Below, one piece after another: positions 12,933-32,688 of a stretch of DNA of 64,000 bases (position 1 is its first letter; each line of letters begins with the position of its first letter). The notes beneath the pieces are model-generated. The model did not search any database. It was not told where the DNA came from and worked only from the letters and a program-made list of their open reading frames with translations. Location: positions 1,404,001 to 1,468,000 of the forward strand of contig NZ_CP011032.1 of assembly GCF_002310815.1 (NCBI RefSeq). Direction: 5' to 3'. Source of the stretch: Pseudoalteromonas tunicata (GTDB lineage: Bacteria; Pseudomonadota; Gammaproteobacteria; Enterobacterales; Alteromonadaceae). A program made the position numbers and the translations under genes.

Positions 12933-13174
12933 CTCTGTTTTATTTTTAAATTCACATAAATCTTCAATTAAGTAACTGCTGATCTTGGTCCTCGTTCACA
13001 AGGTACAGCATCCATTTCGGACGAACCTATAATGCAGATTCAGTTTAAACTTAATTAGCGCGCCTTATTTTAACGTGTTATCACAACCAACAACATCTTT
13101 TACCATGGCAAATTTAGAACGGTTAGAAACACAGAAAATATGCGTGTCGACAGCGATTGCCGGGCAGCCAAAAG
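12933..13174 (-). pseudogene. nth 3' fragment 1 (most decayed)
   Basis: The stretch 12933-12970 matches the last codons of nth (CEFKEKTE region), and 13086-13174 matches the segment around TIAVDTHIFRVSNRTKF. The middle (12971-13085) is unrelated or scrambled. Fragment 1 lies next to gloA and is probably the original chromosomal nth 3' end. It ends at the same break as the other fragments. Confidence 0.8.
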
Positions 13175-13188
13175 ATAATTATGCTAGA
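13171..13188 (+). repeat. Island left-end motif, copy 1
   Basis: AAAGATAATTATGCTAGA directly abuts nth fragment 1. Related 18-bp motifs occur at 15035, 18357, 20747 and 23069. Confidence 0.7.
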
Positions 13189-13289
13189 CAGATGCAAAGG
13201 CTGCATTCGTATTCATGTTAATGGGCTGTTGAAAATAATGTCGCTACATCGCATATTCTTTGAACTTAATCGTTTAAGGTGTTCCAAAA

Positions 13290-14681
13290 ATGAAAAAATT
13301 TACGCTCATATTACTGTTTTTAGGGTTGTGTGCCTGCACTAATATAAGTAAAAAAACTAAGACAACAAATATTTCCTCTAATTATGTTCCACAAGAATAT
13401 GTGAAGTTAACGCATCCTGAGTGGAGTAAGAACGCAAGTTTTTATCAAATTAATACACGACAGTTCACGCCTGAAGGAACATTTGCAGCCGCTGAGCATC
13501 AACTACCACGATTAAAAGAACTTGGCGTAGATATTCTTTGGTTAATGCCGATTCATCCGATTGGCGAAGAAAACAGAAAAGGATCCTTGGGTAGCCCATA
13601 TTCAGTAAAAGATTACTACGGTGTTAATCCGGAGTTTGGTACCTTAGATGACTTAAAAAGCTTTGTTAACGCTGCTCACGAATTAGGTTTGTACGTTATT
13701 TTAGATTGGGTAGCAAATCATAGTGCTTGGGATAATGAATTAAGACATAAGCACCAAAATTGGTATACAAAAAATTCGCAAGGTAACTTTCAACCTACGC
13801 CGTGGTGGGATTGGTCAGACATAATCGACTTTGATTATAACGTACCAGAAATGCGTGAATACATGACTGATGCAATGAAGTATTGGGTCAAAGAAGTAAA
13901 TATTGATGGTTATCGATGTGATGTAGCTGGTTTTGTTCCTCTCGATTTTTGGGAAAACGTAAGGGCGGAGCTAGACGCGATCAAGCCCGTTTTTATGTTA
14001 GCTGAATGGGAAATGCGTGATTTACATGCTAAAGCTTTTGATGCTACTTATGCATGGTCTTGGCAGGAAGCTATTCATGATATTTTAAGTGGTCACGCTG
14101 ATTTAAATAGATTGTTTGTATACTATTCATGGAATGAGGGAGCGTATCCGAAAAATAGCTATCGGATGACGTATGTTTCAAATCACGATGCTAATTCATG
14201 GGAAGGAACCGTGTTTGAGCGTTATGGTAGCGAAGAAAAAGTAGCGACAGCAATCGTATTGTCTATTGTCGGTGAAGGTATGCCATTAATTTATAATGGA
14301 CTTGAAGCAGGGAATAGTAAGCGGCTTGAGTTTTTTGAAAAAGATCCTATAGAATGGAAAGAGCATGACTTTAAGCCATTGATTCAGAAGCTCTTAGCTT
14401 TGCTGAAACAAAACAGTGCGTTGTGGCATGGTAAATATGGCGCGACAATGGAGCGTATTTATAATACTAATCCGACAGAGGTGTTTAGTTTTATCCGCGA
14501 AAATACCAAAGATAAAGTGTTTGTTGTGATTAATTTTTCTGATAAAGAGCAAGATATTCAATTTATGGGTCCACAAACAGCTGGAGTATATACAGAGCTA
14601 TTTAGCAAACAAAAGGCAACGCTTACTGAAGACGCAAGCCTTAAATTGGCGCCTTGGGAGTATAGAGTTTATGTTCGGTAA
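13290..14681 (+). CDS. GH13 alpha-amylase-family lipoprotein
   Basis: 463 residues with a lipoprotein signal (MKKFTLILLFLGLCAC, lipid Cys16), so probably periplasmic or outer-membrane attached. The TIM-barrel glycoside hydrolase 13 motifs are in order: VILDWVANH (region I), DGYRCDVAG with nucleophile Asp211 (II), LAEWE with acid/base Glu239 (III) and YVSNHD with Asp300 (IV). A C-terminal beta domain follows. It should hydrolyse alpha-1,4-glucan-type sugars; the exact substrate cannot be read from sequence. It is the only gene of its island module, lying between nth fragments 1 and 2. No maltose/starch transport genes are nearby. Confidence 0.92.
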   Translation: MKKFTLILLFLGLCACTNISKKTKTTNISSNYVPQEYVKLTHPEWSKNASFYQINTRQFTPEGTFAAAEHQLPRLKELGVDILWLMPIHPIGEENRKGSLGSPYSVKDYYGVNPEFGTLDDLKSFVNAAHELGLYVILDWVANHSAWDNELRHKHQNWYTKNSQGNFQPTPWWDWSDIIDFDYNVPEMREYMTDAMKYWVKEVNIDGYRCDVAGFVPLDFWENVRAELDAIKPVFMLAEWEMRDLHAKAFDATYAWSWQEAIHDILSGHADLNRLFVYYSWNEGAYPKNSYRMTYVSNHDANSWEGTVFERYGSEEKVATAIVLSIVGEGMPLIYNGLEAGNSKRLEFFEKDPIEWKEHDFKPLIQKLLALLKQNSALWHGKYGATMERIYNTNPTEVFSFIRENTKDKVFVVINFSDKEQDIQFMGPQTAGVYTELFSKQKATLTEDASLKLAPWEYRVYVR

Positions 14682-14790
14682 TGTTTAAAGGTTAAGCGTT
14701 TATTTGAGGTTTTCAAATTAAGATAATCATGCGGGTAGCACATATTTAAGTTATTCGCATGATCATTAATATATTTCAATTAAAAATTAG

Positions 14791-15038
14791 TTACTCTGTT
14801 TTCTCTTTAAACTCACATAAGTCTTCAATAATACATGAACCACAACGCGGTTTTCGGGCGGTACAGGTATAACGACCATGCAGGATTAACCAGTGGTGCA
14901 CGTCAACTTTAAATTCTTTTGGAACGACTTTTAGTAGTTTTTGTTCAACTTCTACAACATTTTTGCCGGGGGCAAATTTGGTACGGTTAGAAACACGGAA
15001 AATATGCGCGTCTACGGCAATCGTCGGCCAGCCGAAAG
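14791..15038 (-). pseudogene. nth 3' fragment 2 (frame still open)
   Basis: This fragment encodes the last ~82 residues of endonuclease III from FGWPTIAVDAHIFRVSNRT to CEFKEKTE without frameshift, including the four-Cys iron-sulfur motif. It has no start codon or catalytic HhH/Lys region. The sequence breaks at GGCTGGCC-coding bases, exactly as in the other fragments. Confidence 0.93.
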
Positions 15039-15052
15039 ATAATGATGGTAGA
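15035..15052 (+). repeat. Island left-end motif, copy 2
   Basis: AAAGATAATGATGGTAGA follows nth fragment 2. Confidence 0.75.
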
Positions 15053-15116
15053 TGAAATAAGCTGTAAAAGCGTAAACTAGCTTCACAACTATCTCTGCTT
15101 TCATTTAATCTTTACC

Positions 15117-16763
15117 TTATAAGCGCCGGATATCTTTAAGGTATTTGCGGCCGATAGGTATGAGGTGCTCTTCAACGATTAAGTCATAGTCTGCCGATGT
15201 TCTTCGTTTAAGTATAAAATGAGTGTCTACTTTAACCAAATATGATTTGTGGCAACGTATTATTTTTTCAGAACCTAGTGCTTTTTCTATGGTTTGCAGA
15301 TTTGTATCGACTAATTGCTCTTTAGTAGTTGTGCCATGTCGATAAACGATTTCTGAGTAGTTGCCTGCTGCTTTGACATATAGCACCTTATCAAGCAAAG
15401 CAACGATCTTTGCAATTTGAGGGCATAGGGAACGGCTGTTTTTATTGTTTTCTATTATCGTGCTACTTTCCGCTAATTCTTTCTGCGTTGAAATAATATT
15501 TGCTTGAACAATGCTATGTTGTTTATCTTTATCTTCTTGTGAAGTTAACGCTACCTTGTAACCATACATTAGCCCGCTAGCAAGTATGAGCACCTCTATA
15601 AAGGAACTTACTTTAATTAACGTCCAACCTACGAAATAATCGATTATATTTGCTACTGATAAGCCGGAAATAACACTACCGATAACAAAAACAATAAGTG
15701 CACATAGGTAAAAAACACCTTGCTTTCCTTTGCTAGACAAGGTGCGAACAGCAATAATAAATGTGATAGCAAGTACAATTAAACAGTTAAGTAATGCTAA
15801 ACCATAAGCGATTTGATACATGGTAGGGTCGGTACGCTCAAAGGAAACGCAATAACATAACCAAATGAAAATAAGCATTCTTTGATTATATTTCAGTAAG
15901 CTGCCAGCTTTTGTTTTTTTTTGTTTAAGTTTTAAATAATCATAACTAAAAAAAGCAAAGGTAATAAAAAACAATATCCCTAGCGAATTAGGCGTAAAAA
16001 AGGGTACCCCTTGAATTTGAGGAAAAGTGCTTTTTAACCAACCTTCTCCCGCAGCTACCCATAAAAAAATAGAGGTGAGTAAAGCACCGTATTTAAGAAA
16101 TATAGTTTGTCGAAAAAAAACATAGCTTAGAATGCTAAACAATAAGAATAAGCTAATGATGCCAAAATAGATCCCATCTATTAGCGATGATTTTTTAATG
16201 CGATCGGTAAATTCTTTAGGTGTGAGAACAAATAGCTCTCCACGTAAGTAGCGACCTGAAATAGATATGTAAACGGGATTTTTTATCGTTTCTTTAGTCA
16301 GTTTAATTGAGAGTAATTTGTTATCGGTGCTTGAGGGAGTAAGTAACTTTTCTTGGGTTACATTATCATGTTGATAAAGCAAAATGGCATCAGTAAAAAT
16401 ATTATTTCGTGCGATAACCAAAACTAATCCATCAGGAGACGGCAATACTGATTGATCTAATTGAATTCGAATCAATGAATAACGATGGTTGCCAAGGTTA
16501 AAATTTCCTTCTTTTATAGGTTGCCAATTAAACGCGTCATTTGCAGCATTAAGCGATATAGGGCTATCGCTTTTATGGATTGATACATCAGCAACATAAC
16601 CTTGTGTAACAGCAGAGCTTTTGCTTTGCGTTAGGAAGTAGGTAAAACATATTAGTATCGAGAGAAGGATTATACTCTGTTTACCATGTTTTATTGTTGG
16701 TAGCTTTATACTGTTTGTCAATTTTACAATATTCCATTTGTTATTATTGTTATTTATAATCAA
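15117..16763 (-). CDS. 7TM sensor with C-terminal LytTR DNA-binding domain
   Basis: 548 residues. One N-terminal hydrophobic helix (about 30-45) is followed by an extracytoplasmic domain (about 50-190) and seven or so transmembrane helices (about 195-405), like the 7TMR-DISM architecture. After a short coiled linker, a LytTR domain occupies about 445-548 (VLYVKAAGNYSEIVY...IIRCHKSYLV...IPIGRKYLKDIRRL). LytTR domains bind DNA, so this may be a one-component membrane-bound transcription regulator. The divergent neighbour encodes a serine hydrolase lipoprotein and is its most likely target. The start codon is uncertain. It is part of the island module between nth fragments 2 and 3. Confidence 0.85.
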   Translation of the reverse strand: MIINNNNNKWNIVKLTNSIKLPTIKHGKQSIILLSILICFTYFLTQSKSSAVTQGYVADVSIHKSDSPISLNAANDAFNWQPIKEGNFNLGNHRYSLIRIQLDQSVLPSPDGLVLVIARNNIFTDAILLYQHDNVTQEKLLTPSSTDNKLLSIKLTKETIKNPVYISISGRYLRGELFVLTPKEFTDRIKKSSLIDGIYFGIISLFLLFSILSYVFFRQTIFLKYGALLTSIFLWVAAGEGWLKSTFPQIQGVPFFTPNSLGILFFITFAFFSYDYLKLKQKKTKAGSLLKYNQRMLIFIWLCYCVSFERTDPTMYQIAYGLALLNCLIVLAITFIIAVRTLSSKGKQGVFYLCALIVFVIGSVISGLSVANIIDYFVGWTLIKVSSFIEVLILASGLMYGYKVALTSQEDKDKQHSIVQANIISTQKELAESSTIIENNKNSRSLCPQIAKIVALLDKVLYVKAAGNYSEIVYRHGTTTKEQLVDTNLQTIEKALGSEKIIRCHKSYLVKVDTHFILKRRTSADYDLIVEEHLIPIGRKYLKDIRRL

Positions 16764-16891
16764 TAGGTTAAAGGTATTATGCTCGAATTACTATACCGTT
16801 CATAAATCGTATTGTAGCAACTATTATTTATTATTAAACAAACTGTTAATCTAACTCAGTTCTAGAATAAAATTAAAGGAAAAGTACGTAA

Positions 16892-17992
16892 ATGATGGAT
16901 AAGAATTATTTTCAGAATCTGATGGTTATGGGCATCTTGCTATTTATTTCGGCGTGTAACAGTAATGGTAAAAAACATGAAACTATTAAAACTGGTGTTC
17001 AATCAACGCTAGCTGAAACACTTGATACGGTGTTGGAGGCAAACCTTAATGATGATAATGCGGGGCTAATCATTTCAGTCTGGCAAAATGATGTGAATTT
17101 ATATACTGGAATGAAAGGCATTGCCAAACCTTATTTACCAATAACGGAGAACACTCAGTTTCGTTTAGCGTCGGTTAGTAAAACCTTTACTGCAATTGCA
17201 ATACTCAAATTATACGAGCAAGGATTTGTTGATCTAGAAGATTCTATCTTGGATTATTTGCCAGAATTAGATCAATCTTGGCAGGACATTTCTCTACATC
17301 ACTTACTGGTTCACCAATCAGGTATTCCAGACATATTTAACGATCTGGAAACACATCAGATTATTGATAATGAAATTACCAATGACAAAATATTTCATTA
17401 TTTTATCGAAAATCCAATGCTTGAGTTCAATGCGGGTAGCAATGAAGATTACAGCAATACAGGATATGTTTTATTAGCGAAAATAGTGAATATAGTCACG
17501 GGGAATACGTTTGCTAGTTATATGGAAAGTGAAATCTTTAGTCCTCTAGGGATGAATCATAGTTATATTCTGGATGAACATGCTGAAATTACAGAGCAAA
17601 CAGCAATGAATCTCGCAACGGAACACAAAATATTTGGACGTGAATCTTTTAGCTATGGCTCTGCTGCTCAAGTTAGTTCAATGGTAGATATGCAGCGTTT
17701 CTTATCTGCTTTTATGACAGGAAAAATTTTACAACCCGAGACTAAAGCGTTAATGATGACAACGTATAGTCCCCCTGATGAATCACTATTTAATGGTACA
17801 GGGTATGGTATATTTTATTTTAGTGATGATGGAAAAACGGTTTATGGTCATACTGGCGGCCATGATGGCTTTAGAACTATATATGCAATAAATCGTGAAA
17901 AAAATGCATTTATCGTCATTTTAGGTAATGGAGGAGATTATATGCCAGATTACAGTTATATGGTTGAGTTAGCAGCAGAGTTTTTAGAATAG
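16892..17992 (+). CDS. Serine hydrolase of the beta-lactamase/PBP4* (AmpC-like) family, lipoprotein
   Basis: 366 residues with a lipoprotein signal ending FISAC (Cys22). The three active-site motifs of class C-like serine hydrolases are present: SVSK (Ser94-Lys97), YSN (187-189) and HTGG in the last third. Such proteins include esterases, D-aminopeptidases and peptidoglycan-active enzymes; true beta-lactamase activity cannot be claimed. It is transcribed divergently from the LytTR sensor, sharing a ~130-bp promoter region. AAGGAAAAG precedes the ATG at 16892; a second ATG follows at 16895. Confidence 0.88.
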   Translation: MMDKNYFQNLMVMGILLFISACNSNGKKHETIKTGVQSTLAETLDTVLEANLNDDNAGLIISVWQNDVNLYTGMKGIAKPYLPITENTQFRLASVSKTFTAIAILKLYEQGFVDLEDSILDYLPELDQSWQDISLHHLLVHQSGIPDIFNDLETHQIIDNEITNDKIFHYFIENPMLEFNAGSNEDYSNTGYVLLAKIVNIVTGNTFASYMESEIFSPLGMNHSYILDEHAEITEQTAMNLATEHKIFGRESFSYGSAAQVSSMVDMQRFLSAFMTGKILQPETKALMMTTYSPPDESLFNGTGYGIFYFSDDGKTVYGHTGGHDGFRTIYAINREKNAFIVILGNGGDYMPDYSYMVELAAEFLE

Positions 17993-18060: not shown

Positions 18061-18360
18061 TTACTCAACTTTATCATTAAACTCACACAAATCTTCAATA
18101 ATACAAGCATCACATAGAGGCTTACGTGCAACACAGGTATAACGGCCGTGCAGTATTAGCCAGTGATGCACATCGACTTTAAATTCTGCAGGTACAACTT
18201 TTGTATAGGGACATACTTATGCCGGGAGGGCAGGATGGCGTACGAGCAGTGTTTAGTAACTTTTGTTCTACTTGATCAATGTTTTTACGCATGGCAAATT
18301 TGCTACGATTGGAAACGCGGAAAATATGCGTATCTACAGCGATTGTCGGCCAGCCAAAAG
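18061..18360 (-). pseudogene. nth 3' fragment 3, with a ~52-bp insertion
   Basis: This fragment matches the same part of nth as fragment 2. It is interrupted at about 18202-18253 by an unrelated GC-richer segment (GTATAGGGACATACTTATGC and onwards) that the other copies lack. It ends at the common break and is followed by the left-end motif. Confidence 0.9.
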
Positions 18361-18374
18361 ATAATGAAAGTAGA
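18357..18374 (+). repeat. Island left-end motif, copy 3
   Basis: AAAGATAATGAAAGTAGA follows nth fragment 3. Confidence 0.75.
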
Positions 18375-18503
18375 TGTAAAAGGTAATACCTATAAGCTGC
18401 TTTTTAACTCCCTGACAGTTACTTTCGACATAGCTCTATTTACTCTAATTAAACAGTTAACAGTCTCAATAGTTTTAGTTTTTTAGAACAATGCCTTGGT
18501 CTA

Positions 18504-19577
18504 CTAAGTGCATTTTTTAAAAATCCATTCTAAAGGTCCGTTTTTATAATACTTGAGCCAAAACACACTGAAAATTACGCTAATTATGCAAAAGACCAAT
18601 GCAGCAAATACTGACACGTCTATGGTTTTATTAACGAGTAAGCCAGTCGCTTCAAGAATTCCCATGCCAACAATGACATGTGCTACATACAGAGTTAACG
18701 TTAACTGCCCAGTTTTGCTTAGCCACTCAATTAACTGGTTGGTAGGAAATACACTTGCTAGTTTTAGAGAAACTAGCAAAACAAGAACGGCAGAGCTTGC
18801 AGCTGAAAACATATATTGTGGCAACGGCGGTATTATTGACGTGGTTAACAAAAACTCAATTTCATCTTTTGACATGCCAATAGACGGGTCATCTCCTGCC
18901 CACAATCTCAGCATATAGAAACTGGCTTCTACAATAAGTAAAATACTTAAAGACCATGTAAACAAAGACTTCCTTACATTAGTATTGGATAAATCTTGTT
19001 TACCCAACCATATGCCAAATAACAAGAAACCACACCAAGGTAAAATTGGGTGATAACCATTAAAGAAAAGGTGTCTAATCAATCCTTCAGTTGTCCAAAA
19101 ACCAGTATAACTAAGCTCGAGCCAATCCCATCCTTTTTCGTAATCAAAGAATAGCCACATTAATGGGAATGCAAAAACAAAACCGATAGATGCACCGAGC
19201 AGTTTCTTGCTGCTAAGAGTAAATAAAAATGCAGCTATCAAAAAATAGAATGCATAGAATTTCAAGATGTCTGCTTCCCAAATAGAAGTAAAAGCCAAGC
19301 CAATCAAAAGTAGTAAAACAGACCTTTTTATCAAAGAGGTTCTTACTTGCTTTATGTGTTCCATTGAGCCACTGGTTACACATTTTTTAGTTAAAAGCGC
19401 AATACCTATACCCGCTAATATGACAAACAAAGCCGAGGCCCGGCCTTCGAGTAGAGCCGCAAACTCTATTAATTGTGGTGTGCCAATATCGGCGTTCATG
19501 GCTAACTTAAAGTTTACAATAACCATGCCAAAGAGCGCTAGTGCTCTTGCAAAGTCAATACCGATTAGTCTATTCAC
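18504..19577 (-). CDS. DUF418/HGSNAT-like multi-pass membrane protein
   Basis: 357 residues with about 9-10 transmembrane segments. The N-terminus (LIGIDFARALALFGMVIVNF) and EGRASALFVILAGIG are typical of the DUF418/DUF1624 acyltransferase-like membrane family, and the C-terminus ends with the GPLEWIFKKCT pattern of DUF418. The substrate is unknown; related proteins are thought to transfer acyl groups across the membrane. A TetR-family gene is divergent, with an inverted repeat between them, so TetR control is likely. The pair makes up the module between nth fragments 3 and 4. Confidence 0.85.
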   Translation of the reverse strand: MNRLIGIDFARALALFGMVIVNFKLAMNADIGTPQLIEFAALLEGRASALFVILAGIGIALLTKKCVTSGSMEHIKQVRTSLIKRSVLLLLIGLAFTSIWEADILKFYAFYFLIAAFLFTLSSKKLLGASIGFVFAFPLMWLFFDYEKGWDWLELSYTGFWTTEGLIRHLFFNGYHPILPWCGFLLFGIWLGKQDLSNTNVRKSLFTWSLSILLIVEASFYMLRLWAGDDPSIGMSKDEIEFLLTTSIIPPLPQYMFSAASSAVLVLLVSLKLASVFPTNQLIEWLSKTGQLTLTLYVAHVIVGMGILEATGLLVNKTIDVSVFAALVFCIISVIFSVFWLKYYKNGPLEWIFKKCT

Positions 19578-19620
19578 TTTCTTACCCCACAGAATTCATT
19601 TTTAACTTTTGAGACGTTGG

Positions 19621-19651
19621 TGTATCATAATGGAATTAAATATATGATACA
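19621..19651. promoter_or_regulatory. Probable TetR operator
   Basis: TGTATCAT (19621-19628) and ATGATACA (19644-19651) form a perfect 8-bp inverted repeat with a 15-bp AT-rich spacer. It lies in the 89-bp gap between the divergent DUF418 and tetR genes, overlapping the place where both promoters must be. Confidence 0.65.
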
Positions 19652-19666
19652 AGGTTGTCTCATAAA

Positions 19667-25470: not shown

Positions 25471-25956
25471 TTGGATAATCCATACTCTACAAATAAAAAT
25501 AGGTTGGCTGATGTCATAGCTGCAATTCAAGTAATGGCAACTTATAAGTTTTATAAAGCAGATTTTTCAGCTTGGGCTAAAAGAATAGAAGGAAATGAAT
25601 CTAAAGGTGAGTATTGGAAAAAAATTTTTGAAGAGCACCCAGAATTTTTTCGTTTAGGTGGGGAGCGAAAGAAAGCATCTCTAGTTTGGCGAAGAAGCTA
25701 CCAAAAGCTATATGATGTGGAGCTTGAAGAAAAAATTTCAAGGGATAAATTTAAATCTTTAACTCAAGAAGAGAAAAAAAGAATTTCTCGAATTCCCTTA
25801 GAAGATTCTGATATTTCCACTTTGATCAATACAGCAATCAATCTTCATACTCGTGAGCTTGACCAGAAAAAGGACTCAAGGTGGTGGATTGCTGCTATAT
25901 CAGGTTTTTCGGGTATGCTAGGCGCAATTATTGGCACACTAATAAAACTTATCTAG
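25471..25956 (+). CDS. Unknown protein: winged-helix-like N-terminus and C-terminal TM anchor
   Basis: 161 residues from a TTG start (GGGGGC 5 bp upstream). The first ~85 residues (RLADVIAAIQVMATYKFYK...EEHPEFFRLGGERKKASLVWRR) look like a winged-helix fold. A charged helical part follows, and one C-terminal membrane helix (WWIAAISGFSGMLGAIIGTLI). The family is not named with certainty. The layout, a cytosolic DNA-binding-like domain with one C-terminal membrane helix, recurs in the cassette protein at 29833. It lies between the two copies of the 333-bp repeat. Confidence 0.65.
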   Translation: MDNPYSTNKNRLADVIAAIQVMATYKFYKADFSAWAKRIEGNESKGEYWKKIFEEHPEFFRLGGERKKASLVWRRSYQKLYDVELEEKISRDKFKSLTQEEKKRISRIPLEDSDISTLINTAINLHTRELDQKKDSRWWIAAISGFSGMLGAIIGTLIKLI

Positions 25957-26020
25957 ACCCCATTTAACAAGTATTTAAATGAGATTTGAGCTGTGTTTAA
26001 AACTAATAGAAATAGTGGTG

Positions 26021-26344
26021 ATGCTGTTGAAGAAGTGGGGCCGTTACCAGGCAAGGCAGGAGTTGGGTAATGGTTATGCGAGTAAGTCGCCAACTGAAAA
26101 AATACGTGAGTTTTGTGAGTTGGGTGTGCATGGGTCGAGCTTTGCCGCTGAAGAACGCAATGTGCCTGAGTATTTAGAGTTGATTGATGGCCGTATTGCC
26201 CAGTTGCCACAAAATTATATGACTGCGATTCGGGTTAGGTTTGTTTTGCAAGTTGAGCGCGGTGCGCTATGTTCGTTTGGGTTTAGTAGTGTTGCGGCCT
26301 TTGAGATTTGTTTAGAGAAGGCGATTAATGCGCTGTTGGGGTAG
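26021..26344 (+). CDS. Small phage-like protein, duplicated (copy 2)
   Basis: 107 residues from ATG 26021; the frame is open to an ATG at 25979, but the upstream residues differ from copy 1. From KKWGRYQARQ onward it is almost the same protein as that encoded at 23776. The stop marks the end of the direct repeat, after which the integron-cassette part begins. Whether it is expressed is unclear, because its upstream signals differ from copy 1. Confidence 0.6.
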   Translation: MLLKKWGRYQARQELGNGYASKSPTEKIREFCELGVHGSSFAAEERNVPEYLELIDGRIAQLPQNYMTAIRVRFVLQVERGALCSFGFSSVAAFEICLEKAINALLG

Positions 26345-26664
26345 GTTTGGCTGTGCTGGCATTAACGGTTGTGGCAAGGAATACATGATGCATTGCGGTA
26401 CTAACGTAATCTATTGTAATATCAATAAAATAAGTCGATTGATAGAATTGCGGGTTAAATAACTGTGAATATAAACAGTTGGTACTCGTTTCTCGTATAG
26501 TCATGAAAACGAGCAAGACACTCGATTTACTGCAGAGTGAAAGATACGCGTATTCCTTAGAAGTTCAAGCTGGTAAGGGATGCAAGAGCCGGCGATTAAA
26601 ATGGCTGGTAGGAAATCGAGCGTGGCCGCTGTCGCAAAACGACCCAATCGCTCGATACTGAATT
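26345..26664. other. Stretch between the repeat and the first integron cassette
   Basis: A 52-codon frame (26503-26661, beginning MKTSKTLDLLQSERYAYSLE) has no clear ribosome site and no recognised relatives. Inverted bases ATCGAGCG/CGCTCGAT lie just before the GTTAGGG at 26665-26671, where the cassettes begin. This may be a decayed attC or a recombination end. No integron integrase gene or attI site was recognised. Confidence 0.45.
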
Positions 26665-26677
26665 GTTAGGGGTACAA

Positions 26678-27220
26678 ATGGATTTCAGAGTAATCATCGT
26701 AGCATTGGTATTAGCCATTTCTGGTTGCCAATCTACTTCAAATAAGAAAATGGAAGATTTAGCAAAAGTTGCTGAGGGTGGTGATAACTATGCTCAATAC
26801 CTTTTGGGGTATAGCTACGAGCGAGGTGACGGCAACCCCAAAGATTTAAACAAAGCGAAGTATTGGTACTCAAAATCAATTGAACAAGGAAATGGTCGTT
26901 CTGCCTATAACCTTGCAATCCTAATTTTATCTGGCAGTTTTGGCACTCCCGATGTTAAAGAAGCTATTCCATTATTAACTATTGCAGCTCAACAAAAACA
27001 TGAGAGAGCACCATTTGATTTAGGTGTTCTTTATTACAAAATGGGTGGTCCTGAGAATGTAGATTTAGTTAAGGGATATGCTTGGTTACAAGTCACAGTC
27101 CATCGAAAGCTAGAAGATCAAGTAACCGCAAAGAGTATTCTTTCAGGTTTAAATTTATCAACTAAACAAATGCAGGATGCATCTAAGTATACTAAAGAGT
27201 TGATTCAAAAGTATGGGTAA
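26678..27220 (+). CDS. Sel1-repeat lipoprotein (integron cassette 1)
   Basis: 180 residues from ATG 26678. A lipoprotein signal ends with LAISGC (Cys about 17). Sel1-like tetratricopeptide repeats follow (DNYAQYLLGYSYERGDGNPKDLNKAKYWYSKSIEQGNGRSAYNLAI). Sel1 proteins are adaptor-like solenoids found at the envelope, and several limit or shape protein interactions there. The cassette starts at GTTAGGG just 7 bp upstream of the ATG. Expression therefore needs a promoter outside the cassette. The gene ends 6 bp before its attC. Confidence 0.85.
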   Translation: MDFRVIIVALVLAISGCQSTSNKKMEDLAKVAEGGDNYAQYLLGYSYERGDGNPKDLNKAKYWYSKSIEQGNGRSAYNLAILILSGSFGTPDVKEAIPLLTIAAQQKHERAPFDLGVLYYKMGGPENVDLVKGYAWLQVTVHRKLEDQVTAKSILSGLNLSTKQMQDASKYTKELIQKYG

Positions 27221-27226
27221 ATGTAC

Positions 27227-27327
27227 CCCTAACAAGCTGTTAAACAAGGACAAAATACAGTTGGCTTTTTGTCACTTCGTTCCTTATTTTAGCCAACTGC
27301 ATTTTGCCTGTTAACAGGGCGTTGAGG
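27227..27327 (+). other. attC site of cassette 1
   Basis: It runs from CCCTAAC to GTT at 27321, where the 147-bp element is inserted. The inner arms CAGTTGGCT/AGCCAACTG and CTGTTAAAC/CTGTTAACAG form the expected long imperfect hairpin. Confidence 0.88.
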
Positions 27328-27470
27328 CTGTAGAATTTCTCATTTGGTCAAGTTTTTAGGTGATTTAAGGGGTCTCAAATGCATTACTTAGTACGAGATT
27401 GTCGCTTAGAAAGCGATACAGGAGGTCAAAAAAATGGCCAAATTTATAAAAATAGAAATTCTACAGCCTC
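27324..27470 (+). mobile_element. 147-bp inverted-repeat element inserted in attC, copy 1
   Basis: The ends GAGGCTGTAGAATTTCT and AGAAATTCTACAGCCTC are perfect 17-bp inverted repeats. GTT flanks both sides (27321-27323 and 27471-27473). If the element is removed, the attC end becomes GTTAGCT, exactly complementary to the AGCTAAC that ends the next cassette. Inside are a short hairpin TCGCTT/AAGCGA, the strong Shine-Dalgarno AGGAGG and a 13-codon frame. It is not a normal cassette, since it lacks its own attC. Confidence 0.82.
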
Positions 27471-27475
27471 GTTAG
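27434..27475 (+). CDS. 13-codon ORF in the 147-bp element (tentative)
   Basis: MAKFIKIEILQPR, then a stop made by the element/attC junction GTTAG. It is preceded by a perfect AGGAGG with an 8-bp spacer. An overlapping 41-codon frame starts at 27379 (AAGGGG upstream). The second element copy encodes the same 13 residues at 28874-28915. Whether the peptide matters, or only the ribosome-loading signal, is unknown. Confidence 0.3.
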   Translation: MAKFIKIEILQPR

Positions 27476-27527
27476 CTGCCATAAGCTTTAGGCTTGGGCA
27501 TTAAATTTTTAAAAGGATGAAGCTAGA

Positions 27528-28547
27528 TTGGAAGATGTATCGAAGGACTATCAAAATTTCATATTGATAGCGGTAATAGTTGTTTGGGTACTTAGCTTTT
27601 TATTTGAAAGGTCTAGGTATTTACATAGGAAGCTGTTTAGAAAAGTATTATATGAAAACACAATAGTACGAACTATTAGAAATAGATTTCTACAAGTCTT
27701 CCTACCCGGATTAACAGGCGCTTACTTCATTACATTGGATGTCTGGGGTGATAAATGGGACATAATAAAGAACCACATAGAGAAGCATGAAATTGCCTTT
27801 TCGATACTAATATTTGTATCTTTAACTGCTTTGTTAATTCGAGGGATTGCGGATTGGTACGAGGAACAATCAGGTGATGCATACAAAAAGTTTTTGGAAG
27901 GCTTTGCCTTACTAACTACACGAGTGGTCCAGAAGAAGCTTGATCGTTTTAAAGATGAATCTGGAAAGTTGAAGCCAAATGGAAATACGTTTAAGCAAAT
28001 TACTCAGCCAAAAGAGCAAATAAATTTGATCTTAGGTGAAATAGAGGCGTTATTACTTAATAATTTTTCTTTAAAACGTAACCAAGTTTGTATAACAATC
28101 ATGCACAATGACCCGAAGAACAATAATTGGTATTACGAATACGAAACGAATCGAAGTTGGAAACATACGAAAGCTATTAAGCTCATAGAGGGTAAATCAA
28201 CTGCTGCTGAGTGCCTTAAAATCGGTGAACCAATTTTTCACGCTTGTAAAAGACAGGCTCATAAAAAGGGGAATTACTTTTTATCCGAGCGCGATAATAG
28301 AACTGGGGATGGAAGCGTATTTTGCTACCCAGCATTCACTGTCAATAATGACTATAGAGATAACTACATCATTTCGATAGTCACATATGGGCGCAGGCTA
28401 TGTGATCCGCTGGATGAACAGCAAGCAGACGCAATATCAGAAATTTTTTCAGATATTTGCCGGAGAATAGATTTAGAACTTACACTAAACTCAATTAAAA
28501 GATGGCAGTATGAGTTTCACACAAACAAATCTAGGAGTGTGGCATGA
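27528..28547 (+). CDS. Membrane-anchored protein with GAF-like C-terminal domain (cassette 2, gene 1)
   Basis: 339 residues from TTG 27528 (AAAGGATG upstream). Two or three N-terminal membrane helices (NFILIAVIVVWVLSFLF; AFSILIFVSLTALLIRG) are followed by a helical linker and a cytosolic domain of about 190 residues. The latter part (GKSTAAECLKIGEPIFHACK...GDGSVFCYPAF...YIISIVTYGRRLCDPLDEQQADAISEIF) resembles a GAF sensory domain by eye. The exact family is not recognised. It overlaps the next gene by ATGA, so they form a coupled pair within one cassette. A phage-defence or stress-sensing role is a guess, based on the habit of cassette arrays to carry such genes. Confidence 0.65.
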   Translation: MEDVSKDYQNFILIAVIVVWVLSFLFERSRYLHRKLFRKVLYENTIVRTIRNRFLQVFLPGLTGAYFITLDVWGDKWDIIKNHIEKHEIAFSILIFVSLTALLIRGIADWYEEQSGDAYKKFLEGFALLTTRVVQKKLDRFKDESGKLKPNGNTFKQITQPKEQINLILGEIEALLLNNFSLKRNQVCITIMHNDPKNNNWYYEYETNRSWKHTKAIKLIEGKSTAAECLKIGEPIFHACKRQAHKKGNYFLSERDNRTGDGSVFCYPAFTVNNDYRDNYIISIVTYGRRLCDPLDEQQADAISEIFSDICRRIDLELTLNSIKRWQYEFHTNKSRSVA

Positions 28548-28753
28548 ACCAAGTCATAAGTTTCTTTATAAAGGCTTTTAGTAATGAGTCCTTAAACAAG
28601 GAATTAGAGTTAAAAAATGATCGAGAATACGTCATTCACTTTGCAACTTCCTTAAAGAAAGCTCGTGAAGATATTCATGTAACTGATTATTCAGTTAGTA
28701 AAGAAGAGCAGCTAACAAGCAAATCCAGCGGACTAGCCAAAGCTAGCCGCTGA
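28544..28753 (+). CDS. Small partner protein (cassette 2, gene 2), C-terminus encoded by attC
   Basis: 69 residues; the start overlaps the upstream stop (ATGA). It is mostly charged and helical, with no membrane segment. The last ~14 residues (LTSKSSGLAKASR) are read from the attC site itself, with the TGA inside the attC hairpin at 28751-28753. The family is not recognised. Strict coupling to the membrane/GAF-like gene suggests that the two proteins work together. Confidence 0.6.
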   Translation: MNQVISFFIKAFSNESLNKELELKNDREYVIHFATSLKKAREDIHVTDYSVSKEEQLTSKSSGLAKASR

Positions 28754-28763
28754 TTTGGGCGTT
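28710..28763 (+). other. attC site of cassette 2 (continues as GTTAGCT at 28911)
   Basis: It starts at AGCTAAC. The arms are AAATCCAGCGG/CCGCTGATTT and CTAGC/GCTAG. Its GTT end is split from AGCT by the second 147-bp element. Confidence 0.88.
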
Positions 28764-28910
28764 GAGGTTGTAGAATTACTCATTTGGTCAAGTTTTTAGG
28801 TGCTTTAAGGGGTCTCAAATGCATTGCTTAGTACGAGATTGTCGCTTAGAAAGCGATACAGGAGGTCAAAAAAATGGCCAAATTTATAAAAATAGAAATT
28901 CTACAGCCTC
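28764..28910 (+). mobile_element. 147-bp inverted-repeat element inserted in attC, copy 2
   Basis: Same length and same insertion position (between GTT and AGCT of attC) as copy 1, with GTT at 28761-28763 and 28911-28913. It differs from copy 1 at four positions by eye, two of them in the left terminal repeat (GAGGTTGTAGAATTACT). The AGGAGG and 13-codon frame are intact (28874-28915). Confidence 0.82.
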
Positions 28911-28946
28911 GTTAGCTGATTATTGAAATTTTGAGTAGTACTCCAA

Positions 28947-29420
28947 ATGAAGAATTATGTGCCTCATCCAAGATATGGATCTCAACCAATTACTTCTGGT
29001 CACGTTTATTCTAAAGATGAAATTGAAAGTGCCCACTGGCGCTATGCTAGCTTGAAATATTTTCCTGAAACGGCAATACCTGCTGAAGCAGAAAAACAGA
29101 ATTATGCAGAATATTCTCGAAAACTGTACGTTGATATCGAAGAGTCTTGTAAAGGTTGCCAGAGAGAGTTTATATTTTTTGCGCTTGAGCAAAAGTACTG
29201 GTTTGAAGAACTAAAATTTTGGGTTGATTCACACTGTATCAAGTGCATCAATTGCCGAAAAAGAGACTTTGAAATAAAGCAAATGCAAGTTAAATATTCA
29301 AACCTTGTATCAAAAATGGATAGAACAGCAGAGGAAACGCAGATAGTAAAAGCTATCGGGCAAGAGCTTTTTGAGTTGGGTTACATTAAAAATATAAATA
29401 AATTAAATAAAATCAGCTAA
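28947..29420 (+). CDS. Zinc-ribbon protein (cassette 3)
   Basis: 157 residues. The central part CKGCQREFIFFALEQKYW...HCIKCINCRKR has two CxxC pairs and the EFxFxxxEQ pattern of the small zinc-ribbon family PF13451 (zf_Tbcl, from memory). The rest is charged and helical, and no enzymatic motif is seen. The TAA stop is made by the AGCTAAC that begins the cassette's attC. The start at ATG 28947 has no clear Shine-Dalgarno; the AGGAGG of the nearby element lies about 80 bp upstream and is too far to serve directly. Confidence 0.7.
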   Translation: MKNYVPHPRYGSQPITSGHVYSKDEIESAHWRYASLKYFPETAIPAEAEKQNYAEYSRKLYVDIEESCKGCQREFIFFALEQKYWFEELKFWVDSHCIKCINCRKRDFEIKQMQVKYSNLVSKMDRTAEETQIVKAIGQELFELGYIKNINKLNKIS

Positions 29421-29492
29421 CAAACCCCAGCACAATGCGCCTTCGGCGCTCGACTCGCAACAAGTTGCTCGCGTGTGTGGCGGGCGTTAGCA
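29415..29492 (+). other. attC site of cassette 3
   Basis: AGCTAAC at 29415-29421 and GTTAGCA at 29486-29492, with the palindrome GCGCCTTCGGCGC and ACAAACCCC-type arms between. Confidence 0.85.
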
Positions 29493-29755
29493 GGTTTTCG
29501 GGTTTGAACGGTTTTAGTCAGTAGTTTTGTTCGGGCATTGCGCGTGTTTGGCTTTCCTAGCGGCACTGGCAAATAGTCAAAGCTCGCCAGTTTGTAGGTT
29601 TGCTGCAAGCGATTGTGGCGGTAGCGTTGCTCTTCTTGGCTTCGCTTAACAGTGTTGGCTCGCCGTGTCGCAGTTAACAGGTTTAATTTTAATATCAGCA
29701 GTCTGCCTTTGTTTGGGTTTGCCAGTGCGGCAAGCCGCGAAAGTCCGGTTCAGGC
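29493..29755 (+). other. Apparently non-coding cassette 4
   Basis: About 330 bp between two attC crossover points. Short frames on both strands are Arg/Ser/Ala-rich and cross attC sites; none has a convincing start or ribosome site. It could carry a small RNA, a promoter or a decayed gene. Confidence 0.55.
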
Positions 29756-29814
29756 TGCTAACAAGGCCAGTCAAGCGACGCCAAACAACGTCACGCCTGC
29801 TGGCAGCGTTATAC
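29756..29814 (+). other. attC site of cassette 4
   Basis: 59 bp from TGCTAAC to GTTATAC. The 5' arm CAAGGCCAGTCAAGCG and 3' arm GCCTGCTGGC fold imperfectly. Confidence 0.82.
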
Positions 29815-29832
29815 CCTTGAAAGGAGTTGGTA

Positions 29833-30225
29833 TTGAAATCGTATGTGGTTAGTGAAAAAGTCCTGAAAAAAGTGATGCTTACCCTCTATCATCGTATCGT
29901 TGAACAAGAGAATGATGGGGTACTTGATCTAAACAGATATAAGTTTCATGCCTTTGATCGTGACATGGAAGTTCAAGTGCCTGAAGTAGTTGATAGGCAA
30001 AAATCTATACCAAAAGTTAACTATGCAGCTTATGTTATGAGGATGGATGAACTGGGCTACATCAAGAGAGATGGTATGAGTTTTGTGTTTACTGATTCAG
30101 GGTTTTTAGCGGCTAGCAAGTTGGCTTATCCAGTTAGGGTATGGTTTAAGACTCATTGGCTTGGGCTATCAGGCTTAGTTGTAGGTATTGCAGCCTTAGT
30201 CGTTGCGATCAAGCAGTTACCTTGA
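29833..30225 (+). CDS. Winged-helix-like protein with C-terminal TM helix (cassette 5)
   Basis: 130 residues from TTG 29833, with AGGAG at 6 bp. The body (VLKKVMLTLYHRIVEQENDG...YVMRMDELGYIKRDGMSFVFTDSGFLAASK) looks like a winged helix. The last ~25 residues form one membrane helix (HWLGLSGLVVGIAALVVAI). The family is not recognised. The layout matches the protein encoded at 25471. Possible roles are a membrane-tethered sensor or an effector/regulator of a defence pair. Confidence 0.65.
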   Translation: MKSYVVSEKVLKKVMLTLYHRIVEQENDGVLDLNRYKFHAFDRDMEVQVPEVVDRQKSIPKVNYAAYVMRMDELGYIKRDGMSFVFTDSGFLAASKLAYPVRVWFKTHWLGLSGLVVGIAALVVAIKQLP

Positions 30226-30231
30226 GCACGG

Positions 30232-30308
30232 GTATAACAATGCGCTCAAATCGTTCGCTTCGCTCACTGGGACCGGCTAAAGCCGGCCCCTTAGCTTAAT
30301 CGTTATAC
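30232..30308 (+). other. attC site of cassette 5
   Basis: 77 bp from GTATAAC to GTTATAC, with the inner hairpin CCGGCTAAAGCCGG. Confidence 0.82.
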
Positions 30309-30325
30309 ACATCAGGGAAGTTAGT

Positions 30326-31165
30326 ATGAAAAAGTTGGTATCAGCGTTCTCAATTTTGTTGTTTACCTTGCCAGTATTAGCGGAAGACTCGATTTTATTA
30401 GGCACATCCACATCGTTAGAATCAAAGATAATGGGTGAGAATAGACCTTATATGGTTTATTTACCCCCGTCTTACGAAAAAAGCGAAAATACTTACCCTG
30501 TCATTTATCTTCTTGACGGTGATACCCATAGATTTAAAGGATTTGTCGGGGTGCTTGAATCCTTGAGTACAGAAACGTTAGAAAAGCAGGTTCAAGAGTC
30601 AATCGTCATTTCCATTCCGAATACAAATAGATCACGAGACCTCACACCTTCATATCTGAGAGAGTGGAAATTTAAAGGCCGAGTTTTGGACACATTTGAA
30701 CAAACAGGAAATGCGCAACAGTTCGCCGAGTTCCTTCAAAAGGAGCTAATACCAGCCATTGATACTAAATACAGAACTTCTAAAAAGCGGTTATTGGTTG
30801 GTGAATCGTTTGGAGGTTTGTTTGCTGCAACCACTCTTCTAAAGTCACCATCTGTTTTTACAGACTACCTAATCATTGATCCAACATCTCTATGGGATAA
30901 CGACTATTTAAATCGAGAATTTAGTGCTACAAATGGAGAAGTAAAGATTCGTTCTCGAGCTTACTTTGCTTTTGCAGACAATTCTCACCTGGGAGAAATC
31001 GGATTAACTAATTACAAATGGGGTACTACTTTTGCCTCATCTGTAATAGATGCGACAAACGGTATATCTCAACAGCAATACTTCGAAAATGAAACTCATG
31101 GCACCGTTGCTTTTCTAGCTTGGTACAATGGGCTAAAAGTCCTTTTACCAGCCACCGAGAAGTGA
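30326..31165 (+). CDS. Secreted alpha/beta-hydrolase, esterase D/Fes-like (cassette 6)
   Basis: 279 residues with a cleavable signal peptide (MKKLVSAFSILLFTLPVLAE). The esterase family features are PVIYLLDGD, the nucleophile elbow GESFGG, IIDPTSLWDN for the acid region and a late His (ETHGTVAF). Relatives include IroE/Fes-type siderophore esterases and putative tributyrin esterases; the substrate is unknown. GGGAAG lies before ATG 30326. This is an unusual cassette, as it encodes an exported enzyme. Confidence 0.85.
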   Translation: MKKLVSAFSILLFTLPVLAEDSILLGTSTSLESKIMGENRPYMVYLPPSYEKSENTYPVIYLLDGDTHRFKGFVGVLESLSTETLEKQVQESIVISIPNTNRSRDLTPSYLREWKFKGRVLDTFEQTGNAQQFAEFLQKELIPAIDTKYRTSKKRLLVGESFGGLFAATTLLKSPSVFTDYLIIDPTSLWDNDYLNREFSATNGEVKIRSRAYFAFADNSHLGEIGLTNYKWGTTFASSVIDATNGISQQQYFENETHGTVAFLAWYNGLKVLLPATEK

Positions 31166-31168
31166 TGT

Positions 31169-31267
31169 GTATAACAAACAAAGTAAGCGGGACAATAACA
31201 TATGGGCCCCGTCACTTCGTTCCGTATTTTAGCCCACATGTTACTGCCCCTTCTTTGGGCGTTAGCT
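31169..31267 (+). other. attC site of cassette 6
   Basis: 99 bp from GTATAAC to GTTAGCT. The arms are AACATATGGGC/GCCCACATGTT, with a central region like that of cassette 1 (GTCACTTCGTTCC). Confidence 0.9.
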
Positions 31268-31283
31268 GTCATCTGGAGTCACA

Positions 31284-31946
31284 ATGAATAAACAAAGTTT
31301 CCATTATACCGCGGATGCCGCTAGGGTTATTTCCGATGACTATATAGGCTTGATGGATCGTGACGAATATAATTCTGCGATTATGCATGTAAAAGAATTA
31401 ATTAATGCTGCAAATGTTTTATTTATGGCTAAGAGTTATGCGCCTTCTGTTTTTTTAAGTATCACAATATTTGAAGAAATAGCAAAAATAAAATCTGGTC
31501 ATATGCGTTCATGGGGGCAAGAAATAAAACAGGTAAGACGAAGTAAAGATCCATTATTCCAACATGTTAAAAAACATAAGATTGCTCTTGATAATATGTA
31601 CCTTATTGGTGATAGACTTGAAAATAGTATGGGAAAGGATCGAGCTGAAGAGTTTTTTAGGAAATATCAAACTGGTGAATATTCAAATTTCCGAGAAGAA
31701 TCTTTGTATTTCGCAAGATGCAAAAATAAATTACACATACCATCGCAACAATTTGATATAAAGCTATCTGCGGAGCATTTACTCGTTGCAATCGAGATGT
31801 TTAGCGATGAATTTTGGGGAGTTACCGCTGAAGCATCAACCATTTGTGATACTACTGATGCAATTTACATCGAAGTTGAAAAACAGCTAACAAGCGCTTT
31901 AAGTCAACGAGGGTCAAATCTTGACTTCAGACATCAAAACTTTTGA
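31284..31946 (+). CDS. AbiV-like abortive-infection protein (cassette 7)
   Basis: 220 residues. The central part (HVKELINAANVLFMAKSYAPSVFLSITIFEEIAKIKSGHM...LFQHVKKHKIALDN) matches the helical pattern of AbiV proteins. In these, repeated Ala/Leu helices are followed by an EE(I/L)(A/G)K segment and an H..K motif. AbiV is a phage-resistance protein described in lactococci, where it blocks phage translation; transfer of that function here is inference. The C-terminus from QLTSAL onward is read from attC sequence. CATCTGGAG lies just before ATG 31284. Confidence 0.7.
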   Translation: MNKQSFHYTADAARVISDDYIGLMDRDEYNSAIMHVKELINAANVLFMAKSYAPSVFLSITIFEEIAKIKSGHMRSWGQEIKQVRRSKDPLFQHVKKHKIALDNMYLIGDRLENSMGKDRAEEFFRKYQTGEYSNFREESLYFARCKNKLHIPSQQFDIKLSAEHLLVAIEMFSDEFWGVTAEASTICDTTDAIYIEVEKQLTSALSQRGSNLDFRHQNF

Positions 31947-31967
31947 TTGACTGCTTCTCGCTCAAAG
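31885..31967 (+). other. Truncated attC and right end of the cassette array
   Basis: AGCTAAC at 31885-31891 starts an attC whose 3' half is missing. Sixty-one bases later is GCTTCTCGCTCAAAG (31953-31967), the inverted copy of a sequence near the left ends of modules 5 and 6 (20779, 23114). The array was therefore cut where the island's right end begins. Confidence 0.7.
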
Positions 31968-32055
31968 TCGACCTATAGAGTATTTACGTTAACTCATAAT
32001 GGGGCAGAAACGAGTTACGCCTCAAGGTCCGTTCATGGCACAAAGCAGGCTTTGA

Positions 32056-32688
32056 TTACTCTGTTTTCTCTTTAAATTCACACAGGTCTTCAATTATACA
32101 GCTGCCACACTTTGGCTTACGCGCTACACAGGTATAACGTCCATGTAAAATGAGCCAGTGGTGTACGTCAACCTTAAATTCGGCCGGCACCACTTTATCT
32201 AGCTTCTTTTCGACCTCAACCACATCTTTACCCATAGCAAATTTGGTACGGTTAGAAACACGGAAAATATGCGTGTCTACGGCAATCGTCGGCCAGCCAA
32301 AGGCGGTATTAAGCACTACATTAGCAGTTTTACGGCCAACACCGGGTAAAGCTTCGAGCGCTTCGCGGTTTTCTGGCACTTCGCCGTTATGTTTGTCAAC
32401 CAATATTTGGCACATTTTATAAACGTTGGCGGCTTTTGAGTTAAATAAACCGATGGTTTTAATGTAATCACGTAACGTGTCGTGGCCAATAGCTAAAATC
32501 GCTTGTGGTGTATTGGCAACAGGGAAGAGCTTGCGGGTCGCTTTATTGACGCCGACATCCGTTGCTTGTGCTGAGAGTGTGACCGCGACTAGCAACTCAA
32601 ACGGCGAGCTGTATTCAAGTTCGGTTTCGGGATGTGGGTTGTTTTCGCGCAAGCGTACTAAAATTTCATGGCGTTTTTCTTTATTCAT
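32056..32688 (-). CDS. nth: Endonuclease III (nth), intact; attachment site of the islands
   Basis: 210 residues, full length. It removes oxidised pyrimidines from DNA and nicks the abasic site. The helix-hairpin-helix LPGVGRKTANVV carries the catalytic Lys, VDTHIFRVSNR carries the catalytic Asp, and the C-terminal CVARKPKCGSCIIEDLC is the 4Fe-4S motif. It overlaps rsxE's end by one base, as the last gene of the rsx operon. The segment from FGWP to the stop (32056-32303) is the part present as fragments to the left. By the island model this 3' end arrived with the most recent insertion. Confidence 0.97.
   Translation of the reverse strand: MNKEKRHEILVRLRENNPHPETELEYSSPFELLVAVTLSAQATDVGVNKATRKLFPVANTPQAILAIGHDTLRDYIKTIGLFNSKAANVYKMCQILVDKHNGEVPENREALEALPGVGRKTANVVLNTAFGWPTIAVDTHIFRVSNRTKFAMGKDVVEVEKKLDKVVPAEFKVDVHHWLILHGRYTCVARKPKCGSCIIEDLCEFKEKTE

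Follow-up and report, generated by a model that had tools for sequence, protein, structure and literature searches.

Introduction

Passages of PMC7029739 and PMC6222049 describe a class of islands, comprising the staphylococcal cassette chromosome (SCC), SCCmec, the arginine catabolic mobile element (ACME) and the Enterococcus cassette chromosome (ECC), that insert at rlmH (orfX) by means of a serine recombinase and form composite multi-module islands between repeated attachment (att) sites. As described there, ACME is mobilised by the ccrAB genes of SCCmec (PMC7029739), while the att sites of ECC are 50 bp long and multiple attR sites occur in 16 of 32 ECCs (PMC6222049). Here we describe an array of comparable outline inside nth, the gene for endonuclease III, in a 64,000-nucleotide stretch of Pseudoalteromonas tunicata (contig NZ_CP011032.1, positions 1,404,001 to 1,468,000; hereafter the window). 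The nth array and its relatives resemble what these sources report of SCC and ECC in pairing a serine recombinase with a single site in a conserved gene, and in building composite arrays in which att sites recur and some units have no recombinase. They differ in that the target is nth rather than rlmH and that the cut falls mid-gene, such that about 240 bp of the gene's tail is duplicated per insertion. They differ further in having one recombinase gene per element seen, in residing in marine Gammaproteobacteria, and in supplying a foreign tail with an in-frame half of the attP site. By analogy the nth system may work as SCC and ECC do; it is not filed as a member here, given its other target, and the likeness is one of organisation.

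Integron arrays also collect recombinase-less cassettes at one site, with the newest closest to the fixed end. Their relation to the nth array is a functional analogy, integron-like by outcome only: no IntI was found here by motif scan (attC sites were not searched for), and the repeats are nth tails behind a half-site. Islands at dusA, whose integrases are of the tyrosine type, occupy the 5′ end of their target and use their own integrase family. Like the nth islands, they exchange one end of a conserved gene for a new one, and the former end persists as a remnant, as parts of PMC4482086 describe; the word 'tandem' is absent from its main text. The large serine recombinase elements of Durrant et al. 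2022 likewise include differing recombinases that share one target inside a conserved gene, whereas recombinase-less arrays were not seen in the portions of that account considered here, and neither nth nor Pseudoalteromonas appears in its main text (supplements not searched) (PMC10083194). In a literature search judged from titles, openings of abstracts and term counts, with subscription papers and preprints outside its scope, none of the entries listed describes islands at nth.

Five nth tails share a single breakpoint

A first-pass annotation, made from the sequence of the window alone, had proposed that the interval from gloA to intact nth holds five additional copies of the nth 3′ end, in one orientation and with one breakpoint. 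A repeat search, a protein search against the own genome and an alignment all confirmed this arrangement. Intact nth (32056..32688, minus strand), the putative insertion target, encodes an endonuclease III of 210 amino acids with HhH-GPD, HHH and EndIII_4Fe-2S matches. The five additional 3′ ends lie on the minus strand throughout, and the nth homology of every copy begins at one point within a shared core, TTyGGC-TG-(G)CC (TG-CCC in the copy next to gloA). The TG forms bases 1-2 of the Trp132 codon and is located at positions 13165, 15029, 18351, 20741 and 23063 in the fragments, and at 32294-32295 in nth. Measured from core to core, from nth toward gloA, the modules span 9231, 2322, 2390, 3322 and 1864 bp.

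The fragments, numbered from the gloA side, differ in their preservation. f5 (22826..23064, minus) lies closest to nth and is decayed, with 89% identity to the intact nth 3′ end; f4 (20504..20742, minus) is frameshifted (86%); f3 (18061..18352, minus) carries an insertion of about 52 bp and stops (76%); f2 (14791..15030, minus; 80%) alone keeps the nth frame open through the stop, the other four having frameshifts or stops; and f1 (12924..13166, minus; 67%) adjoins gloA. These identities mark f1 as the most decayed copy, and it is taken to be the oldest tail. On the whole the gradient from f5 to f1 fits insertion at nth with displacement of older tails toward gloA. Fragments f2 and f3, however, are out of order in it.

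The comparison set consisted of the window genome (4.96 Mb, two contigs) and 107 further genomes of the genus Pseudoalteromonas, and the nth neighbourhoods of all were fetched. Intact nth was recognised at 107 loci in 106 genomes; nth was cut by a contig end in G015 and broken in G048. The putative gloA of the window lies at 12521..12967 (minus; named from the earlier annotation), and gloA was visible in 25 loci. At three of these (G086, G084 and G051) it follows nth directly, within about 130 bp, and at 22 it is separated from it. The three are empty sites, as had been predicted from the window. The half-site-bearing fragments described below yield 45 core-to-core modules of 1.1 to 10.3 kb in 29 genomes, and one genome elsewhere in the order, G341, holds six nth fragments in one row. 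In G116 (L222) an extra half-site and nth fragment (G116:C1:2129068-2129086) lie 12 kb downstream of nth, so this array exceeds the analysed stretch, and others may do so too.

A conserved half-site precedes every displaced tail

A 24-bp sequence, approximately TATCTACnTTnATTATCTTTyGGC, directly precedes the core of all five fragments. We refer to it as the P half-site; it lies on the minus strand at 23065..23088 (module f5-nth), 20743..20766 (f4-f5), 18353..18376 (f3-f4), 15031..15054 (f2-f3) and 13167..13190 (f1-f2). When the pattern of the five junctions was searched with up to three mismatches, those five sites were the only matches in 64 kb (shuffles, 0.01), and the bases upstream of the half-site were near-random (at most 0.26 bit per position). 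Across the genus, the half-site was present at a score of at least 22/29 in 53 of 77 candidate nth fragments (36 genomes); the 24 candidates lacking it include strongly decayed fragments and second nth genes. It is absent from intact nth, where the same place scored on average 9.0 of 24 in 106 intact copies, with a maximum of 12. Conservation of the half-site was independent of the decay of the adjoining fragment (mean 16.85/19 beside 26 open fragments, 17.00/19 beside 27 decayed ones), although only fragments above the cut were scored, a bias that favours a result of no decay.

An exact search for half-site plus core in genome_contigs returned seven stretches with eight sites, all at nth fragments, from Paraglaciecola, Psychrosphaera, Thalassotalea, Aestuariibacter and Pseudoalteromonas. 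When up to two mismatches were allowed, the order (394 genomes) contained 22 sites in 15 genomes of nine genera, each followed by an nth 3′ end (22 of 22), while the reversed control pattern gave zero sites in the same genomes. Because this pattern contains nth bases, the half-site was also searched for alone. Exact matches in the 108 genus genomes numbered 11, in nine genomes, and none lay away from nth (control, none); seven stand before nth fragments and four are an inverted half within intact nth. A viral contig bearing the half-site was considered as well; it has no nth match and an incomplete core after the half-site, and was taken as chance.

Long nth genes carry the half-site inverted

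In nine genomes of the genus nth is longer than in the window, with 219-220 codons. In eight of the nine (the FGW of G111 was not readable), GCTAAAAGATAATGAAGGTAGATAC or a near copy stands in frame directly after the core and extends the protein by nine residues, ahead of a foreign C-terminus. The insert GCTAAAAGATAATGAAGGTAGATAC is the half-site inverted. The same arrangement was found in a Paraglaciecola record and in G470, a genome of the order, and nth of G048 also holds the inverted half-site in frame. When the reverse complements of 48 module half-sites were compared with the inverted half-site, 15-22 of 24 positions matched (mean 18.6); the five sites of the window scored 18 (f5-nth), 19 (f4-f5), 21 (f3-f4), 20 (f2-f3) and 19 (f1-f2). 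Random 24-mers (n = 20,000) averaged 6.4 matches and reached at most 15. Two 24-bp arms around TG are thus predicted to form a 50-bp palindromic attP, like that of a large serine recombinase. Passages of PMC3783163 give a half-site of about 25 bp and an attP of 50 bp for a serine integrase. A shift of the distal motif between attP and attB, which is 5 bp in PMC3783163, was sought by eye between the predicted attP and nth; it matched partially, with a 4-bp shift and on one side only, and was not used.

In G048 the gene ends at a premature stop after the inverted half-site and is followed by a complete second endonuclease III (38% identical, TIGR01083; L072:2816-3864), as if the island had replaced the entire function of nth. 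A second nth-like gene, 40% identical, also lies about 140 bp downstream of nth in G071 (L130:4118-4711).

An nth-specific serine recombinase adjoins the site in relatives

In G068, a gene for a 553-residue serine recombinase with a Resolvase domain and a zinc ribbon begins beside an nth fragment. Homologues of at least 76% identity are present in 5 of 108 genus genomes (G068 included), and two further ones (60 and 53%) in the 394 genomes of the order. The distance to an nth fragment is 54-74 bp in all seven, and a half-site (23-26/29) accompanies every one. By comparison, 18 further matches had 27-35% identity, and nth was found in none of the 16 loci examined, with about 1.5 kb on either side. 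All six recombinase-bearing genomes with a readable nth have the inverted-half-site tail; for G046 and G052, this nth and the recombinase are on separate contigs. In the seventh, G388, nth lies beyond the fetched stretch. The half-sites of the recombinase elements match the inverted half-site at 19 (G095, G052 and G094), 16 (G068) and 15 (G046) of 24 positions.

Among the best 120 of 533 matches to the recombinase in a protein database, the 55 best have at least 49% identity and the next drop to 36-38% or less; source names among the matches listed are Pseudoalteromonas, Shewanella, Brumicola, Paraglaciecola, Thalassotalea, Lacimicrobium and one Vibrio cholerae. Plasmid records gave 18 matches, every one below 60% identity, and among solved structures no match was found by sequence. 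The N-terminal resolvase catalytic domain PF00239 is recognised at 1.2e-15 and 1.4e-18, and residues Ser14, Arg12, Arg91 and Arg94 of the protein P0001, which we take to be catalytic, are unchanged across 23 aligned homologues. The zinc ribbon PF13408 scores above cut-off in G068 and just below it in G470, with five invariant cysteine columns. The Pfam Recombinase domain PF07508 has no match in the relatives' recombinase; it occurs in one of the 55 closest homologues and is common in more distant ones.

The element of G470 is contained, with both ends, within 9.9 kb (in part L215 10903-17754). It starts with nth, which carries the inverted half-site and a foreign tail. Genes for a type III-like restriction subunit, a DNA methylase, a Mob_Pre relaxase, a RepL-like protein and the recombinase come next, and after them the half-site, an nth fragment and gloA. 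It alone combines its own integrase with a relaxase, as an integrative mobilizable element does. Larger elements are present in three genomes: that of G068 measures about 72 kb, that of G095 40 kb and that of G094 37 kb. Gene-by-gene reading covered the two ends of the G068 element and a similar recombinase-less island in G020, and metal-efflux genes, named from translations alone, were present in both. A motif scan of the fetched genus loci, which can miss divergent recombinases, found only three others at nth: a remnant in the window discussed below, an open frame of 216 residues for a tyrosine recombinase in the G020 island and an integron integrase in G058.

Recombinase-less modules recur in distant species

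A module encoding a DUF418 protein and a TetR regulator is common to the window, G020 and G119 from core to core, amid unrelated neighbours. Its cargo is 94% identical to that of G020 and G119, whereas the chromosome just upstream (rnfE and the 5′ part of nth) is 74.5% identical. The pattern was similar for the amylase module shared with G019 (cargo 96.2%, flanking chromosome 73.5%), for the modules of G009, G069 and G075 (87.6-89.5% against 70-72%) and for those of G041 and G116 (94.4 against 82.5%). Other module pairs come from closer species (89-96%) and are less informative. As the cargo is far more alike than the flanking chromosome, these recombinase-less modules have moved between species. 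They are present in other species, beside other neighbours.

The first-pass annotation would have been contradicted by cargo lying elsewhere without nth fragments. The amylase gene, the sole cargo gene tested genus-wide, occurs at more than 90% identity in 2 of 108 genomes, both times at nth; relatives of 55-65% identity sit elsewhere in 10 other genomes.

Pairwise distances in the 5′ and 3′ halves of nth correlate at 0.22 across 106 genomes, and the correlation between adjoining 120-nt windows, moved in 15-nt steps, reaches its minimum of 0.13 at the core. In three of nine profiled module pairs (G000/G119, G041/G116 and G069/G075), likeness falls exactly at the right-hand core. Two genomes, G061 and G019, combine a foreign functional tail with a native displaced tail, as does G120 when judged against a more distant sister. 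Twenty-seven genomes without a foreign tail were also examined, nine of which have no sister near enough; in 10 of the 18 others the displaced fragment is closer to the nth of the sister species than is the current tail. The idea that a tail travels with its module failed for the amylase module (own tail 75%, cargo 96%); the DUF418/TetR module agreed with it more closely (tail 84-91%, cargo 94-99%). Foreign tails have clearly been exchanged at the core, and ordinary nth tails have evidently been mixed by homologous recombination as well.

A model for stacking at nth and its alternatives

Site-specific integration, as proposed in the first-pass annotation, is supported by the single breakpoint with an element-side half-site, by the palindromic attP and adjacent serine recombinase of relatives and by the empty sites; most of what that annotation predicted held. 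We consider it probable that the array consists of islands stacked by site-specific insertion via an nth-directed serine recombinase, with modules moved in trans and their tails further exchanged by homologous recombination. Its parts differ in strength. Islands that carry the recombinase very probably insert through it at the TG. For the recombinase-less modules we lean somewhat, and with less assurance, toward movement in trans by the serine recombinase rather than by homology after a founding event.

In this model, islands would enter one attachment site in nth by conservative site-specific recombination, most likely catalysed by the nth-specific large serine recombinase of the relatives. 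The enzyme would recognise the 50-bp palindromic attP, with its 24-bp arms and central TG, and the nth sequence around the same TG. The core in nth sits between the motifs GVGRKTA and VDTH, presumably the catalytic lysine loop and the catalytic aspartate of endonuclease III, respectively. Since these residues lie on opposite sides of the core, the enzyme should be lost if an insertion brings no new tail; the second half of nth is severed, and so the element must bring a replacement. In recombinase elements this would be the in-frame attP half with a foreign C-terminus, and in small modules an ordinary nth tail. The displaced tail would persist as a downstream fragment, with the P half-site in front of it. 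Where the incoming module has an ordinary tail, the target is formed anew, such that more modules can enter at nth and older ones are shifted toward gloA. Small modules without a recombinase would move in trans, aided by homologous recombination among nth tails. The earlier proposal that integration restores nth each time is supported as regards site-specific entry; that small modules supply their own new tail agrees with the 10 genomes in which the displaced tail is the more native, and not with the eight showing the reverse.

Several observations weigh against this model. The serine recombinase has no match in the window genome at E ≤ 1e-20, and a close homologue is present in just 5 of 108 genus genomes. 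The second, inverted half-site is not present at the nth of the window or of the other small modules, and the ends of these modules are consequently attR-like (P-B′). According to passages of PMC3783163, serine integrases recombine attP with attB, and attL with attR only with a further factor, and use no other pairings. By these rules P-B′ ends are not usable, and so either a relaxed enzyme would be needed or P′ was lost after entry. Module tails are below cargo identity in 16 of 17 pairs, which indicates that tails were exchanged independently of the cargo, and six of the nine profiled pairs, several of them close species, show no drop at the right-hand core. The break at the core (r = 0.13) is largely the product of the nine longer, foreign-tailed nth genes: once these were dropped, the halves correlated at 0.58, compared with 0.74 within the 5′ half and 0.34 within the 3′ half, change-points fell near the core in only 5 of 27 informative pairs, and the core-located break was weakened as a general proof. 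Finally, in 8 of the 18 genomes with a usable sister the current tail, not the displaced one, is the closer to that sister.

In a different history, complete P-P′ islands entered nth long ago through the serine recombinase, homologous repair of nth erased P′ and trapped the element, and spread between species now proceeds only as DNA fragments recombining via nth tails. This alternative would account for tails that are less alike than their cargo in the module pairs listed, for a rise in identity that, in the pairs G069/G075 and G041/G116, lies inside the tail and not at the core, for the scattered change-points and native-looking tails, and for P-B′ sites that are inert under the rules stated for serine integrases (PMC3783163). 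It fits less well with right-hand ends that fall at the core in three module families (three of the nine profiled pairs), with a half-site that does not decay, and with the combination of foreign functional and native displaced tails in G061, G019 and, relative to its more distant sister, G120. Moreover, donor and recipient tails are often just about 75-85% alike. Sequences of this likeness are poor substrates for homologous recombination. We regard this history as possible but rather unlikely.

A third possibility, that a phage-type tyrosine integrase built the array, stems from a remnant in the window (23055..23519, plus strand). It encodes the C-terminal part of such an integrase, whose N-terminal part is cut off at the junction; its matches are phage integrases, most of them (147 of 164 records) from Vibrio phages. 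The remnant abuts the f5 junction, and the beginning of its arm is common to the junctions of f4, G020, G116 and G120. Nonetheless, it occurs in one of the five window modules, and the motif scan of the genus loci, which can miss some, found no intact copy at nth, whereas in each of the seven elements found to carry the serine recombinase, that gene is adjacent. A palindrome with 24-bp arms and a 2-bp centre also differs from a tyrosine-type core site. We hold this explanation to be very improbable. Splitting of the integrase by insertion, as in SSV-like elements, was considered given that the remnant starts at the junction; the antisense frame of the nth tail was unlike the missing part, and the idea was rejected by eye only. 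The description of the modules as integrase-less stands in so far as a motif scan of the window array found no intact recombinase and no IntI, and is qualified by this remnant, with which the largest module begins. A tandem duplication of nth into which unrelated genes were later inserted by chance would explain repeated fragments alone and is refuted by the half-site and empty-site evidence, as every copy starts at the same TG, the half-site is conserved, the cargo is unrelated and the same site is used in several genera; it merits virtually no credence.

A broader version of the favoured model, which we put forward tentatively and hold a little less likely true than false, is that the nth locus of Alteromonadales hosts a serine-recombinase cassette system. 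Small modules that have no recombinase but possess a P half-site and an nth tail of their own would circulate, mobilised in trans by rare nth-specific mobilizable elements, the target would be recreated such that arrays grow, and each insertion would swap the catalytic-Asp and iron-sulphur half of endonuclease III. If so, marine Gammaproteobacteria possess an SCC-like cassette system whose site can be recognised by a short pattern, and its recombinase and att sites would provide a new pair for genome engineering. The exchange of half of a DNA-repair enzyme would also be a natural experiment, with the host endonuclease III a repeatedly rebuilt chimera. The array further makes it possible to ask whether P-B′ sites, forbidden by current rules, can be used by serine recombinases. 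Its cargo spans metabolism to phage defence, with AbiV in the window and restriction-modification genes in a relative.

Cargo and neighbouring features

The module adjoining gloA carries an alpha-amylase family protein of 463 residues (13290..14681, plus), and the same module is found at nth in G019. The next encodes a 7TM/LytTR regulator on the minus strand and a serine beta-lactamase-family hydrolase on the plus strand (15117..17992). The third, which also occurs in G020 and G119, pairs a DUF418 membrane protein on the minus strand with a TetR regulator on the plus strand (18504..20221). In the fourth are a GNAT acetyltransferase and a 132-residue protein without a Pfam family, both on the minus strand, together with an AraC regulator on the plus strand (20834..22765). 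Beyond the integrase remnant, the 9.2-kb module (23523..31946) holds an HTH protein, proteins without a family, a Sel1 protein, a zf_Tbcl protein, an esterase and, on its nth side, the AbiV abortive-infection protein (31284-31946).

Two pairs of repeats lie within this largest module. Copies of 162 bp at 27317-27478 and 28757-28918 are 98% identical, with 31-nt inverted arms that are 81% complementary, and look like a small non-autonomous mobile repeat. A 300-bp direct repeat (23789-24088 and 26010-26309; 96% identical) encodes a small protein of the unknown phage family phrog_27007, and its copies flank two genes of unknown function.

In G058 the integron integrase (L126:16991-18093) lies directly downstream of nth and is split in two frames, the larger of which scores above the TIGR02249 cut-off. 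Just past gloA in the window, a cluster at 10826-11707 comprises three Ala(ggc) and four Glu(ttc) tRNA genes, seven in all, with near-identical repeats. At the other end of the array, a large gene near rnfE (35076-37694; rnfC-like by eye) encodes a C-terminal tail with several nearly identical lysine/alanine-rich repeats.

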